From an uncultured Alistipes sp. (lineage in GTDB: Bacteria > Bacteroidota > Bacteroidia > Bacteroidales > UBA932): a stretch of DNA of 53,176 nucleotides. The stretch lies in contig CALZHC010000004.1 in the NCBI GenBank assembly GCA_945787505.1, forward strand, positions 1 to 53,176. The letters run 5' to 3'. How positions within the stretch are numbered: the stretch's first letter is position 1; each line of letters opens with the position of its first letter. The notes below the pieces were generated by a model that worked only from the letters and a program-made list of their open reading frames with translations, had not been told where the DNA came from and made no database searches. The position numbers were made by a program, and so were the translations under genes. Shown piece by piece: positions 33,315 through 39,087 of this stretch.

Positions 33315-33344
33315 CATTTTTTTGGGGGAACAACATAAAATACC

Positions 33345-33352
33345 TACTTTTG
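33345..33352 (+). promoter_or_regulatory. -7 promoter element for the SPOR lipoprotein-gcvT operon
   Basis: TACTTTTG matches the consensus exactly and gives a 29-nt leader to the ATG at 33382. It lies downstream of a longer in-frame start at 33322, which is therefore unlikely to be used. Confidence 0.65.
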
Positions 33353-33381
33353 TTGAGTTATTATTACAAAATCGTTTTAGT

Positions 33382-33867
33382 ATGAAAAGTTTCAGAATCA
33401 TACCCGTACTGATGGTTTCAGTATTGGTTTTTACAGGATGTGATTTCTTCCGTTCAATTGTCGGAAAGCCTACCTCCAAAGAGATTGAGAAGATGAAACA
33501 GGAATCTCTCGCCAAGATAAAAAAACAAAGGGAACTTGATTCTTTGAAATTGGTCAATGAACGTATTGCCAGAGAAAGGTTGGAAGAAGAACAGCGTAAT
33601 TCTTTGGAAAACAAGGGTCGTTATCATGTAATAATCGGTGCGTATAGGGATTATGCAAACGCTGACAGAATGTTCTCCACTTTGGAGAAGGATGGTTATT
33701 CTCCCTATTTCGTCAATTTTAGTAACGGTCTCAGGGGTGTGTCAGTGGTAGCTTGTCAGGATTTGCGCAAGGCTCTTGGCGAGGCAGACCGTCTGCTGGA
33801 GCATACATATTGCCCTGATGATATTTGGATTTACGACATTAAACAGAATATTCACATAAACAGATAA
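33382..33867 (+). CDS. SPOR-domain lipoprotein
   Basis: This 161-residue protein has a lipoprotein signal ending VFTGC (Cys20), a charged coiled-coil segment (about 30-75) and a C-terminal SPOR domain (about 80-155, YHVIIGAYRDYANADRMFSTLEKDGY, residues split around ADRMF). SPOR domains bind denuded glycan strands of peptidoglycan, typically at division sites. I use the ATG at 33382, which begins the signal peptide and follows an exact promoter element. It lies 9 nt upstream of gcvT, with no evident functional tie. Confidence 0.87.
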   Translation: MKSFRIIPVLMVSVLVFTGCDFFRSIVGKPTSKEIEKMKQESLAKIKKQRELDSLKLVNERIARERLEEEQRNSLENKGRYHVIIGAYRDYANADRMFSTLEKDGYSPYFVNFSNGLRGVSVVACQDLRKALGEADRLLEHTYCPDDIWIYDIKQNIHINR

Positions 33868-33876
33868 TTGATTAAT

Positions 33877-34983
33877 ATGAAAACAACCGCTTTTACTAAT
33901 AGACACATTGCTTTAGGTGCCAAAATGGTACCTTTTGCAGGTTTCAATATGCCTGTAGAGTATGTAGGTATCAATGAAGAACACAACACTGTGAGAAATG
34001 GTGTCGGTGTATTCGATGTTTCCCACATGGGTGAAATTTGGGCAAAAGGTCCCAATGCACTTGCGTTCGTTCAGTATGTATCTTCAAACGATGCTTCTCT
34101 TCTTTATCCTGGCAAAGTGCAATATACCTGTTTCCCCAACGGAAAGGGTGGTATCGTGGATGACTTCCTTCTCTATTGTATAGACGCTGAAACATATCTT
34201 CTCGTTGTCAATGCTTCAAATATTGAAAAGGACTGGAACCATCTCTGCGCAATTGCACCTAAATTCGGAATGACTCCCGGCAAGGAACTCTACAATGCTT
34301 CAGATGAAATCTGCCAGCTTGCAGTTCAGGGTCCCAAGGCTATTGCTGCAATGCAGAAACTCACAGACGAAGATGTGACATCAATGGAGTACTATACCTT
34401 CAAGAAGATGAAATTTGCCGGTATTGATGTAATCTTCTCGATTACAGGTTACACTGGAGCAGGCGGATGTGAAATCTATGCTGCAAACGAAGATGCTGAC
34501 AAACTCTGGGAAGCAGTATTTGCTGCAGGCGAAGAATTCGGTATTAAACCTATCGGTCTTGGTGCACGTGACACCCTCAGACTCGAAATGGGATTCTGTC
34601 TCTACGGCAACGATATCGATGATACTACATCACCTCTTGAAGCAGGTCTGGGCTGGATTACCAAATTCAGTGAAGCAAAAGGTGATTTCATTGACAAGGA
34701 ATACATGCTCAATCTCAAGGCAGAAGGTCTCAAACGTAAACTCGTAGGTTTCGAACTTATCGACAGAGGAGTTCCCCGTCACGGATATGAAGTATGTGAT
34801 GCTGAAGGAAACGTTATCGGTCATGTGACCTCAGGTACTATGTCTCCTTCAATGAACAAGCCTATCGGTATGGCTTATGTCAACACTCCTTTCAATAAGG
34901 TAGGAAACGAAATCTATATCAAAGTCAGAAACAGACTTCTCAAAGCTGCTGTAGTTAAGATCCCTTTCTATAAGGCTCAGTAA
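33877..34983 (+). CDS. gcvT: Aminomethyltransferase (glycine cleavage T protein)
   Basis: This 368-residue folate enzyme is the T protein of the glycine cleavage system, releasing ammonia and forming 5,10-methylene-tetrahydrofolate. Family landmarks include [13 protein letters not shown] near residue 15, [43 protein letters not shown] and the C-terminal [16 protein letters not shown]. Length matches the family. The ATG at 33877 is preferred; a TTG at 33868 adds three residues. gcvH and gcvP are not in the window. Confidence 0.97.
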
Positions 34984-34987
34984 GACT

Positions 34988-36295
34988 GTGAAGTATCGTT
35001 TTGTAATATCCTTATTGATTTTCACATTTTCTCTCCTTTGTGCTTCGGCACAAGGAGGGAAAGTGTTGAATAGACATGTGGAGGCCCTCTCTGATATCAC
35101 TCTCAGGGGAAGGGCGGCAGGCTCCGAAGGAGAGGCTTCGGCAGCCTCTTATTTTTATAACTACCTTAAGGAAAGCGGGGTGGAGATGCTCACGGGTGAA
35201 GAGGGGGATCTCTTTACCATTCTGACCGGGGATACCTTGGTGTCGCGCAATATTATCGGTGTAGTTGAGGGGTGTGATCCTGTGTTACGCAATCAGTATG
35301 TTGTGGTGGCAGCAAATCTGGATCATCTTGGAGTAAATATCCTTAATGTAAATGGGGAGAAAAGGGAACAGGTTTTCCGCGGTGCAAATGACAATGCATC
35401 CGGACTCGCTGTTGTAATGGAACTTGCGAAGGAGGTCGCGGCAACTTCGTACATGTTTCGCAGATCAGTGATATTCGCCGCTTTCGGATCCAAGGAGGAG
35501 GGAATGGCAGGCTCGTGGTACTTTCTGAACAAATCATTCGGCCATCAGGAAAATATATCATTGATGGTGAATCTCCTTTCTGTAGGATTCACCGGACCGG
35601 ATAACAAGTTCAGCTCGTATGTCCCGATGCCCTCGAAGCAGATATCCTCAATAGCTTCCGCGCTTAGGGATAGGGGAGGACTTTTTTATCCCACTTATTA
35701 TACCGGGGCTCCTGATATGAGTTCCGATTATCTCGCTTTTTATGAAAAAAATATTCCCTCTGTGATCTTCACTTCGGGGAAAGACCTCTATTTCAGGAGT
35801 GTGAATGATATACCATCGAACCTTGATTATGAATCGATGGAGTATATGACTGACTATATCTACTCTTTTGTGCTTGAAGCTGCCAATTCGGAAGAGATGG
35901 CGGGCCGTCCTGACAAGAGGGATAAAGATGATAATGATAAGGAAAACAATGAACCTGCCGACAGGATATACTCACCTTTTGATGTGGATACTCCTCCATC
36001 ATTCTTCAAAGGAGATGAGTCCCGTTTCCTAACGGACTGGGTATACAAATATCTAAGGTATCCGGACTATTCTCTGAGTCAGGGAATACAGGGTACCGTA
36101 AAGATTGAGTTTATTATAGAAAAGGACGGAACCCTTTCAAATGTTCGCGTACTCTCTGCTCCTGCTGATGATCTCGAAAACGAGGCTGTACGGGTGGTGA
36201 GCGCATCTCCTAAATGGAAAGCCGGGGTTCTTGCAGGCAAGAAGGTAAGGGTGAGGTACACTCTTCCTATCGAGTTCAGACTTAAAAAGAAGTAA
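34988..36295 (+). CDS. Degenerate M28-fold protein with C-terminal TonB_C domain
   Basis: This 435-residue secreted protein has a signal peptide (1-21), an M28 aminopeptidase-like domain (about 27-298), an acidic Asp/Lys/Asn-rich linker (about 303-335) and a TonB_C domain (about 345-433). Aligned by family motifs, the first zinc ligand His is Asn110 (AANLDHLG), the catalytic Glu is Lys169 (GSKEEG), the NLDM Asp is Leu197 and the last ligand His is Phe269. Asp135 and Glu170 remain. It is therefore probably not an active metallopeptidase and may instead bind a ligand or partner. It starts with GTG, 4 nt after gcvT. There is no frameshift, so it looks maintained. Confidence 0.85.
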   Translation: MKYRFVISLLIFTFSLLCASAQGGKVLNRHVEALSDITLRGRAAGSEGEASAASYFYNYLKESGVEMLTGEEGDLFTILTGDTLVSRNIIGVVEGCDPVLRNQYVVVAANLDHLGVNILNVNGEKREQVFRGANDNASGLAVVMELAKEVAATSYMFRRSVIFAAFGSKEEGMAGSWYFLNKSFGHQENISLMVNLLSVGFTGPDNKFSSYVPMPSKQISSIASALRDRGGLFYPTYYTGAPDMSSDYLAFYEKNIPSVIFTSGKDLYFRSVNDIPSNLDYESMEYMTDYIYSFVLEAANSEEMAGRPDKRDKDDNDKENNEPADRIYSPFDVDTPPSFFKGDESRFLTDWVYKYLRYPDYSLSQGIQGTVKIEFIIEKDGTLSNVRVLSAPADDLENEAVRVVSASPKWKAGVLAGKKVRVRYTLPIEFRLKKK

Positions 36296-36318: not shown

Positions 36319-39087
36319 ATGGCAAAAGATTACATTTTTTCAGAGATTGAAAAGAAGTGGCAGAATAATTGGGCCCAGAACAATACATTTAAGGTAGAGG
36401 AAGATCCCCACCGTCCTAAATTCTATGTTCTGGATATGTTCCCTTACCCCTCTGGGGCGGGACTTCATGTAGGTCATCCGTTAGGATATATCGCCAGCGA
36501 CATCTATAGCAGATACAAGAGGCTGTGCGGTTTTAATGTGCTCCATCCGATGGGATTCGATGCTTTCGGACTTCCTGCCGAACAGTATGCAATCCAGACA
36601 GGACAGCACCCTGCAAAGACAACAGAAGATAATATAGCAAGATATAGAAAACAGCTCGATAAGATTGGCTTCAGTTACGACTGGTCACGTCAGGTGCGTA
36701 CATGCGATCCTCAGTATTATAAATGGACTCAGTGGGCTTTTCTCCAGATGTTCTCGCATTGGTACGATTCGGCTCTTCAGAAGGCCCGTCCAATCAGCGA
36801 ACTCGAGGAGATTTTTGCCACTGCCGGCAATATCGGTCTTCAAGCAGCCTGCGGCAGTGTCATAGAGTTTGATGCAGATTACTGGAAAGGTTTGAGTGAC
36901 GAGCAGAAGAGCTCTATTCTGATGCAGTACAGAATTGCCTACCTTGGCGATACCTCTGTTAACTGGTGCCCGGCCTTGGGAACTGTGCTGGCAAATGATG
37001 AGGTCAAAGAGGGACTCTCTGTCAGAGGCGGTTTCCCTGTTGAACAGAAAAAGATGAAACAGTGGCAGCTCCGTGTTTCTGCGTATGCAGAACGTCTTCT
37101 CAAGGATCTTGATACCCTTGAATGGAGTGATTCACTCAAGGATATGCAGAAAAACTGGATTGGTCGTTCAGAAGGTGCCGAGATGATATTCAAGGTACTG
37201 AATGGAGATAAGGAGTATGATGTCAAGATTTTTACTACCAGAGCAGATACAGTCTTCGGTGTTACCTTTATGGTTTTGGCACCCGAGAGCGAATGGGTCG
37301 AAAAGCTCACCAGCGAAGAGTGTGCTGATGCTGTCAAGGAGTATCTTACCATGTCGAAGAAGAAGACTGAAAGGGAGAGAATGGCCCAGACTCATAACGT
37401 CACAGGTGTATTTACCGGTTCCTACGCTATAAATCCTTTTACTGGTGAGAAAATTCCCGTGTGGATATCAGAGTATGTTCTGTCAGGTTACGGAACAGGA
37501 GCGATTATGGCAGTTCCTGCACACGATAGCCGTGACTATGCCTTCGCAAGACATTTCAACCTCCCTATAATTCCTCTCATCGAAGGATGCGATGTCTCCC
37601 AAGAGTCCTTTGATGCCAAAGAGGGCATCATGTGTAATTCCGGCTTCCTTACAGGTATGCAGGTCAAAGATGCTATTCCCGCTGCTATTGCAAAGGTTGA
37701 GGAGTTAGGTATTGGTAAGAGGAAGGTCAATTATCGTCTCCGTGATGCCATCTTCTCAAGGCAGAGATACTGGGGAGAACCCTTCCCTATATACTATAAG
37801 GATGGCGTCGCTACTGCGATGCCAGAGAGTGCCCTGCCTCTGGAACTTCCTGAAATTGACCAGTTCAAGCCTACAGAGAGTGGAGAACCGCCTTTGGCAC
37901 GTGCTACTTCATGGAACTATGAAGGTTATCCCATCGAGACGAGCACAATGCCAGGATTTGCAGGTAGCAGTGCCTACTATCTCAGATACATGGATCCTCA
38001 CAATACCAAGGCGCTGGTATCTTCTGAGAAAAACGGATACTGGAGGAGTGTCGACCTCTATATAGGAGGTACTGAACACGCCACAGGTCATCTTATCTAC
38101 TCCCGTTTCTGGAACAAGTTCTTATATGATTTGGGATATGTCTGTGAAAATGAACCGTTCAAAAGACTCGTCAATCAGGGTATGATTCAGGGTAGATCAA
38201 ACTTTGTCTACAGAATCGTAAATACCAATACATTTGTCTCTTATAACCTCAAGGATCAGTACAAGACTACTGAGATTCACGTGGATGTAAATATTGTCCA
38301 TAATGACAGGCTTGATATAGAGGCATTCAGAAATTGGCTGCCGGAGTACCAGAACGCTGAATTTATTCTTGAAGATGGAGAATACATCTGTGGATGGGCC
38401 ATTGAAAAGATGAGCAAATCGATGTTCAATGTGGTAAATCCCGATTATGTATGTGAATCATACGGTGCAGATACCCTTAGGCTGTATGAAATGTTTTTGG
38501 GACCTCTGGAACAGTCTAAGCCATGGGATACCAAGGGAATAGACGGTGTTCACAGATTCCTCAAGAAATTCTGGCGTCTCTTCTACAAGGGAGATGAATT
38601 GCTTGTGAGTGATAGCGAACCCTCAAAGGCAGAACTTAAGGTTCTCCACACACTCATCAGAAAGGTGTCATCGGATATAGAGAACTTCTCGTTCAATACA
38701 TCTGTAAGTGCGTTCATGATTGCCATAAACGAACTTTCTGATCTGAAGACCACCAGTTCACAAATTCTTGAGCCGCTGGTCATCATGCTCTCCCCTTTCG
38801 CTCCGCATATTGCCGAAGAACTATGGGAGGCTATGGGACACGACAGTTCTGTTATGAATGCAAGATTTCCTGAGTATGTAGAAAAGTATACAGTAGAGGA
38901 TTCTTTTGATTATCCTGTCTCATTCAACGGAAAGATGAGGTTTAAAATAACCCTTCCCAAATCCCTCTCAGTCAAAGAGGTAGAAGAGGCTGTCAAGGCA
39001 GATCCCAATACGGCAAGGTATGTAGGTTCTGCTACAATCAAGAAAATCATAGTGGTTCCTTCAAAGATTATCAATGTCGTCATTTAA
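36319..39087 (+). CDS. leuS: Leucyl-tRNA synthetase
   Basis: This 922-residue class I synthetase charges tRNA-Leu. The HIGH signature lies in [16 protein letters not shown] near residue 40, the editing (CP1) domain occupies about 225-480 with the [15 protein letters not shown] motif, and the KMSKS signature is [11 protein letters not shown] near 700. The C-terminal anticodon-binding region is complete. It lies 23 nt after the M28-TonB_C gene. A tRNA-Leu is in the same window but far away. Confidence 0.98.

Follow-up and report, generated by a model that had tools for sequence, protein, structure and literature searches.

The zinc aminopeptidases of the M28 family, among them those of Vibrio proteolyticus (1amp) and Streptomyces griseus (1cp7), resemble the protein described here in fold and in the order of their motif blocks; they differ from it in that four of its six metal and base positions are replaced and that it carries a TonB_C tail. 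M28-fold pseudopeptidases are best known from animals, and the transferrin receptor and nicastrin are non-peptidase M28 homologues in which the fold, without a working zinc site, serves as a binding module. They offer a parallel in mode of action, an M28 fold kept for binding after its zinc site has ceased to work. However, both are membrane proteins of eukaryotes and contain other domains, whereas the present protein is bacterial, secreted, and TonB_C-tailed and has intact orthologues at the same gene position. In the open-access literature, we found no relevant report of an M28-TonB_C protein or of an inactive bacterial M28 protein.

The TonB_C fold is shared with the TonB energy transducer, and TonB C-terminal domains bind TonB boxes by beta-augmentation (PMC11658791). 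The fusion protein has the TonB_C domain that is expected of an energy transducer but shows no evident proline-rich, periplasm-spanning part, and ExbB/ExbD coupling of its own is not expected.

An M28-TonB_C fusion gene between gcvT and leuS

The window, that is, the whole 53,176-nucleotide stretch of DNA analyzed, contains on its forward strand, which also carries the neighbouring genes given below, an uninterrupted reading frame at 34988..36295 with a GTG start codon at 34988 and a stop codon at 36293-36295. Translation, Pfam, and orthologues identify its 435-residue product as an M28-TonB_C fusion protein, a pseudopeptidase. Residues 1-22 (34988..35053) were recognized by eye as a probable type I signal peptide, ending in LLCASA and cleaved before Q; it looks cleavable, and no inner-membrane anchor is evident at the N terminus. 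In the AlphaFold2 model, these residues are part of an N-terminal helix. The M28 fold, without its zinc site, occupies residues 23-300 (35054..35887), as supported by Pfam, alignments, orthologues, and AlphaFold2/Foldseek. The Peptidase_M28 profile (PF04389) matches residues 88-294 with an E value of 2.8e-25 and 89.6 bits against a cut-off of 21.3. A charged variable linker, supported by low model confidence and column entropy, follows at residues 301-342 (35888..36013). It had been called acidic, which is only roughly right: there are about 12 acidic residues but also 7 basic ones. The TonB_C domain, supported by Pfam, dN/dS, entropy, and a tree, spans residues 343-435 (36014..36292), with a match to PF03544 at residues 355-432 (E 1.2e-17, 64.5 bits).

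Only 4 nt separate the stop codon of gcvT (33868..34983) from the GTG start of the fusion gene, and 23 bases separate the end of the fusion gene from leuS (36319..39087); both genes are conserved neighbours identified by synteny and Pfam. A third conserved neighbour, recognized by Pfam (SPOR, 24.2 bits) and synteny, encodes a SPOR-domain probable lipoprotein (33322..33867). Most loci have the SPOR protein and/or gcvT upstream and leuS together with a yitT-like gene downstream; in Cryptobacteroides loci, the SPOR gene lies directly upstream of the fusion gene, and no gcvT was found between them. The SPOR neighbour weakly suggests a cell-wall context, but because the neighbourhood consists mostly of housekeeping genes, synteny is only a weak functional hint.

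At E <= 1e-38, the fusion protein was found in 317 of the 349 genomes of the family to which the window belongs, including 217/233 good genomes, and in 15 of 25 genera. At the same threshold, no match was obtained in any of the 291 genomes that represent other Bacteroidales families. Judging from its Cryptobacteroides and Egerieousia members, the family is very probably UBA932.

Loss of the zinc site in a retained M28 fold

Profile (PF04389) and fold (Foldseek matches to M28 aminopeptidases) place the protein in the M28 family. When it was aligned by phmmer to solved M28 enzymes, N110 fell on His97 and D135 on Asp117 of the Vibrio aminopeptidase, while K169, E170, and L197 fell on Glu151 (the general base), Glu152, and Asp179, in the residue numbering of that enzyme. 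The last histidine ligand corresponds to R270, as seen in the alignment to the Aneurinibacillus aminopeptidase 2ek8 and to all orthologues. An active zinc peptidase has the ligands His, Asp, Glu, Asp, and His and a glutamate base; here, these positions hold N110, D135, E170, L197, and R270, with K169 in place of the base. N110, K169, L197, and R270 are thus the changed residues, and D112, D135, and E170 the retained ones.

The initial annotation, made from an ungapped alignment of the motif blocks, had read the first histidine as replaced by Asn110, the base glutamate by Lys169, and an aspartate by Leu197. These three readings agree with the solved M28 enzymes and with 110 loci, and the alignments likewise confirm that Asp135 and Glu170 are kept. 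It was also right that the last histidine is lost, but the replacing residue is not Phe269 but R270, one position further on. Conserved ligands elsewhere in the domain were ruled out by alignment to the solved enzymes and to intact orthologues. Moreover, the substitutions recur in orthologues that are 46-95% identical to the window protein, and they are therefore not due to chance. On these alignments, zinc catalysis has very likely been lost in the window protein, which would most likely no longer hydrolyze peptides. With two of the five ligands, D135 and E170, still in place, weak binding of some metal may be conceivable.

Structure prediction had been suggested as a check and returned a confident M28 fold. 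AlphaFold2 modelled the window protein with a mean pLDDT of 92.5 and the intact orthologue L047 with one of 92.6, the pTM being 0.72 in both cases; the linker is flexible, with a pLDDT of 51-81 over residues 301-330 of the window protein. For the dead and the intact model alike, the first PDB matches in Foldseek were M28 zinc aminopeptidases; for the window protein, the matches to 1amp and 1cp7 had E values of about 1e-14 to 1e-16 and target-normalized TM-scores of 0.73-0.77. From the models, we are confident that the predicted M28 fold is retained in the dead window protein.

The window genome also encodes a second, unlinked M28 protein (L033/L167; contig C62, 758-1720, minus strand). It is tailless and has lysine in place of the general-base glutamate and tyrosine in place of the last histidine; of 19 matched loci that come from the genus and the family, most share these substitutions.

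A series of intact and dead orthologues

The 110 loci were fetched and aligned at the ligand columns. Leaving aside the distant outgroup L030, a full set of ligands together with the base is found in seven loci (L024, L029, L042, L046, L047, L052, and L056), and six of these, L029 being the exception, carry the TonB_C tail. Because some orthologues combine a full active site with the same tail, the TonB_C fusion preceded the loss of the site. Two big clades have different fixed dead sites: N110/K169 in the window clade, most members of which read N-D-D-K-E-x-R at the site positions, and R110/G135/S169 in a large Cryptobacteroides clade that includes Candidatus Cryptobacteroides merdipullorum and reads R-D-G-S-x-D-N. 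Further combinations occur in other lineages. A search for orthologues sharing both the substitutions and the tail, as proposed at the outset, thus yielded a family-wide series. That intact and dead forms are paralogues was ruled out by their common gene neighbourhood.

In a tree built after removal of the ligand columns, the intact forms were placed near the base. Parsimony gave 6 full-site losses with regain barred, 10 losses of at least two of the five metal ligands, and 4 full-site changes when unrestricted, counts that hinge on a quickly built tree in which many forks are weak. From these sequences, we estimate that the site was lost in about 6-10 independent events. Gains of Lys/Arg made up 11 of 109 changes at the ligand columns compared with 4 of 158 at control columns holding Asp/Glu/His; this excess, a pattern noticed post hoc, would fit a scenario in which basic residues take over the charge of the zinc.

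The intact-site loci that were read have a glyoxalase-fold gene between gcvT and the M28 gene (L042:3566-3946 and L047:3594-3998). Other intact-site loci have gaps of matching size at that position, and the gene is absent from the dead clades. This distribution could be plain phylogeny.

Purifying selection after loss of the site

When the window gene was compared with that of its sister species, the two proteins being 95% identical, the M28 part had an NG86 dN/dS of 0.073, the TonB_C domain one of 0.025, and the linker one of 0.48; leuS and the SPOR gene of the same species pair gave 0.051 and 0.15, respectively. Both dN/dS and column entropy show the TonB_C domain to be more strongly conserved than the M28 body. 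The catalytic residues have been lost while purifying selection continues, as expected of a pseudoenzyme.

These values bear on whether the gene is simply in decay, its catalytic residues lost by drift ahead of deletion. Recurrent loss of the site and the drifting of position 170 in Cryptobacteroides are what decay would produce, but the low dN/dS of the M28 part, a frame that is open in nearly all orthologues, and the presence of the gene in nearly all good genomes of the family make this explanation extremely unlikely. Together with the family-wide series, the M28-part value upholds the first reading of the gene as a maintained M28-fold protein and not a decaying pseudogene.

Column conservation is clade-specific. 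N110, D112, N136, E170, and D247 are invariant in the window clade (n = 17; N110 and E170 each 17/17), and R110, D112, N113, G135, and N136 are invariant in the Cryptobacteroides clade (R110/G135 49/49), where position 170 drifts freely. These invariant columns indicate that the old pocket has been kept in new forms, with parts of it in the Cryptobacteroides clade as the exception. The protein might then be an enzyme of altered chemistry, which would use D112, D135, and E170 with the new K169 and R270 and one metal or none. Such an enzyme would account for a pocket that, in the window clade, is not simply drifting, and for the fold retained in the AlphaFold2 model. Yet the window protein no longer has either histidine ligand, the general base, or Asp197, the large sister clade has glycine at position 135 in addition to the drift at position 170, and no alternative catalytic set is common to all; from the sequences, we judge this possibility very unlikely.

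The TonB_C tail

The initial annotation held a soluble TonB_C domain to be unusual, a view that the rest of the order contradicts. In Bacteroidales, TonB_C domains sit likewise on unrelated bodies, including WG-repeat, M56, vWA, MORN-like, and other proteins, several of which, WG-repeat proteins among them, have a signal peptide and no obvious membrane anchor and are apparently secreted and soluble; the bodies differ, however, and none of those examined is an M28 domain. Examples include L149, L151, and L154, with tails on vWA, unknown, and WG-repeat proteins, respectively. In a tree based on few columns, the M28-fused tails group together and apart from other TonB_C tails, including those of true TonB, with the exception of one long-branch TonB row. 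This single group fits a single fusion event. The window tail is about 47% identical to the TonB tail of the sister species.

The window genome encodes ExbD as well as receptors with plug domains, and a soluble TonB_C domain could in principle compete with or tune true TonB by occupying the TonB boxes of receptors, damping or timing nutrient import while the M28 body acts as a mere carrier. A complete TonB_C domain with a conserved core, receptors and ExbD in the same genome, and a tail under tighter constraint than the body would all suit this role. The separate grouping of the fusion tails, the long-branch row excepted, speaks against it, as does the conservation of the M28 body, which is thus more than a carrier, and we regard such competition as unlikely.

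In a profile search of the window genome, the fusion tail was the only TonB_C domain above the cut-off. The idea that it is the sole TonB_C of the genome was dropped, a missing assembly stretch being likelier, since the sister species has an mdh-tonB-hflX block (L145:2876-5825) that is wholly unmatched at the DNA level in the window assembly, which is rated 99.66% complete. This absence is probably an assembly gap and possibly a deletion that would leave no ordinary TonB. A 245-residue protein encoded on contig C17 of the window genome (L035:991-1728) appears to have a single transmembrane helix at its N terminus and matches TonB_C weakly, with 22.2 bits, below the cut-off. Genes of the exbB/exbD type lie a few kb upstream of its own gene, which adjoins a uridine-kinase-like gene, and the protein is a candidate divergent TonB.

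A proposed role as a binding protein

For a dead M28 protein, a binding or docking role appears to be the best remaining reading. We therefore propose, with a probability of roughly 0.6, that the window protein is a secreted periplasmic pseudopeptidase, a non-catalytic binding protein that docks through its TonB_C domain to a partner in the outer membrane or cell wall. The pseudoenzyme part has strong support, and the docking partner is inferred. Trees and synteny support an ancestor of the zinc M28 aminopeptidase type, encoded beside gcvT/leuS, that gained one TonB_C tail early in the family. The two-zinc site then decayed repeatedly, while purifying selection held the fold, the tail, and the gene position. 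The metal-free M28 body would offer a binding surface, and the tail would dock, through strand addition, onto a partner that lies in the outer membrane or is associated with the wall and that offers a TonB-box-like peptide. By analogy with TonB, we give docking through the tail slightly less than an even chance. The co-conserved SPOR lipoprotein might join in the docking, but a partnership with peptidoglycan or the SPOR protein is rather unlikely. In the window clade, the basic residues K169, often R197, and R270 could conceivably neutralize carboxylates left without zinc, and in Cryptobacteroides, R110 might perhaps pair with D197/D112.

Extended to the family, this would make the fusion a periplasmic adaptor: after the gain of TonB_C, the M28 domain would repeatedly have been freed from catalysis to work with the outer membrane or wall as a structural or a regulatory partner. 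It would do so across hundreds of UBA932 species, in some clades with an internal salt-bridge network in place of the zinc. We put forward this wider reading only tentatively, as possible and not as probable. In a large bacterial group from gut and rumen, a single gene position holds the protein in both intact and dead form, joined to the same docking tail, and the site has been lost several times. This position thus provides a natural series for asking what an M28 fold is used for after catalysis has ceased, and the series also bears on the role of TonB_C tails on Bacteroidales proteins that are unable to reach the inner-membrane motor.
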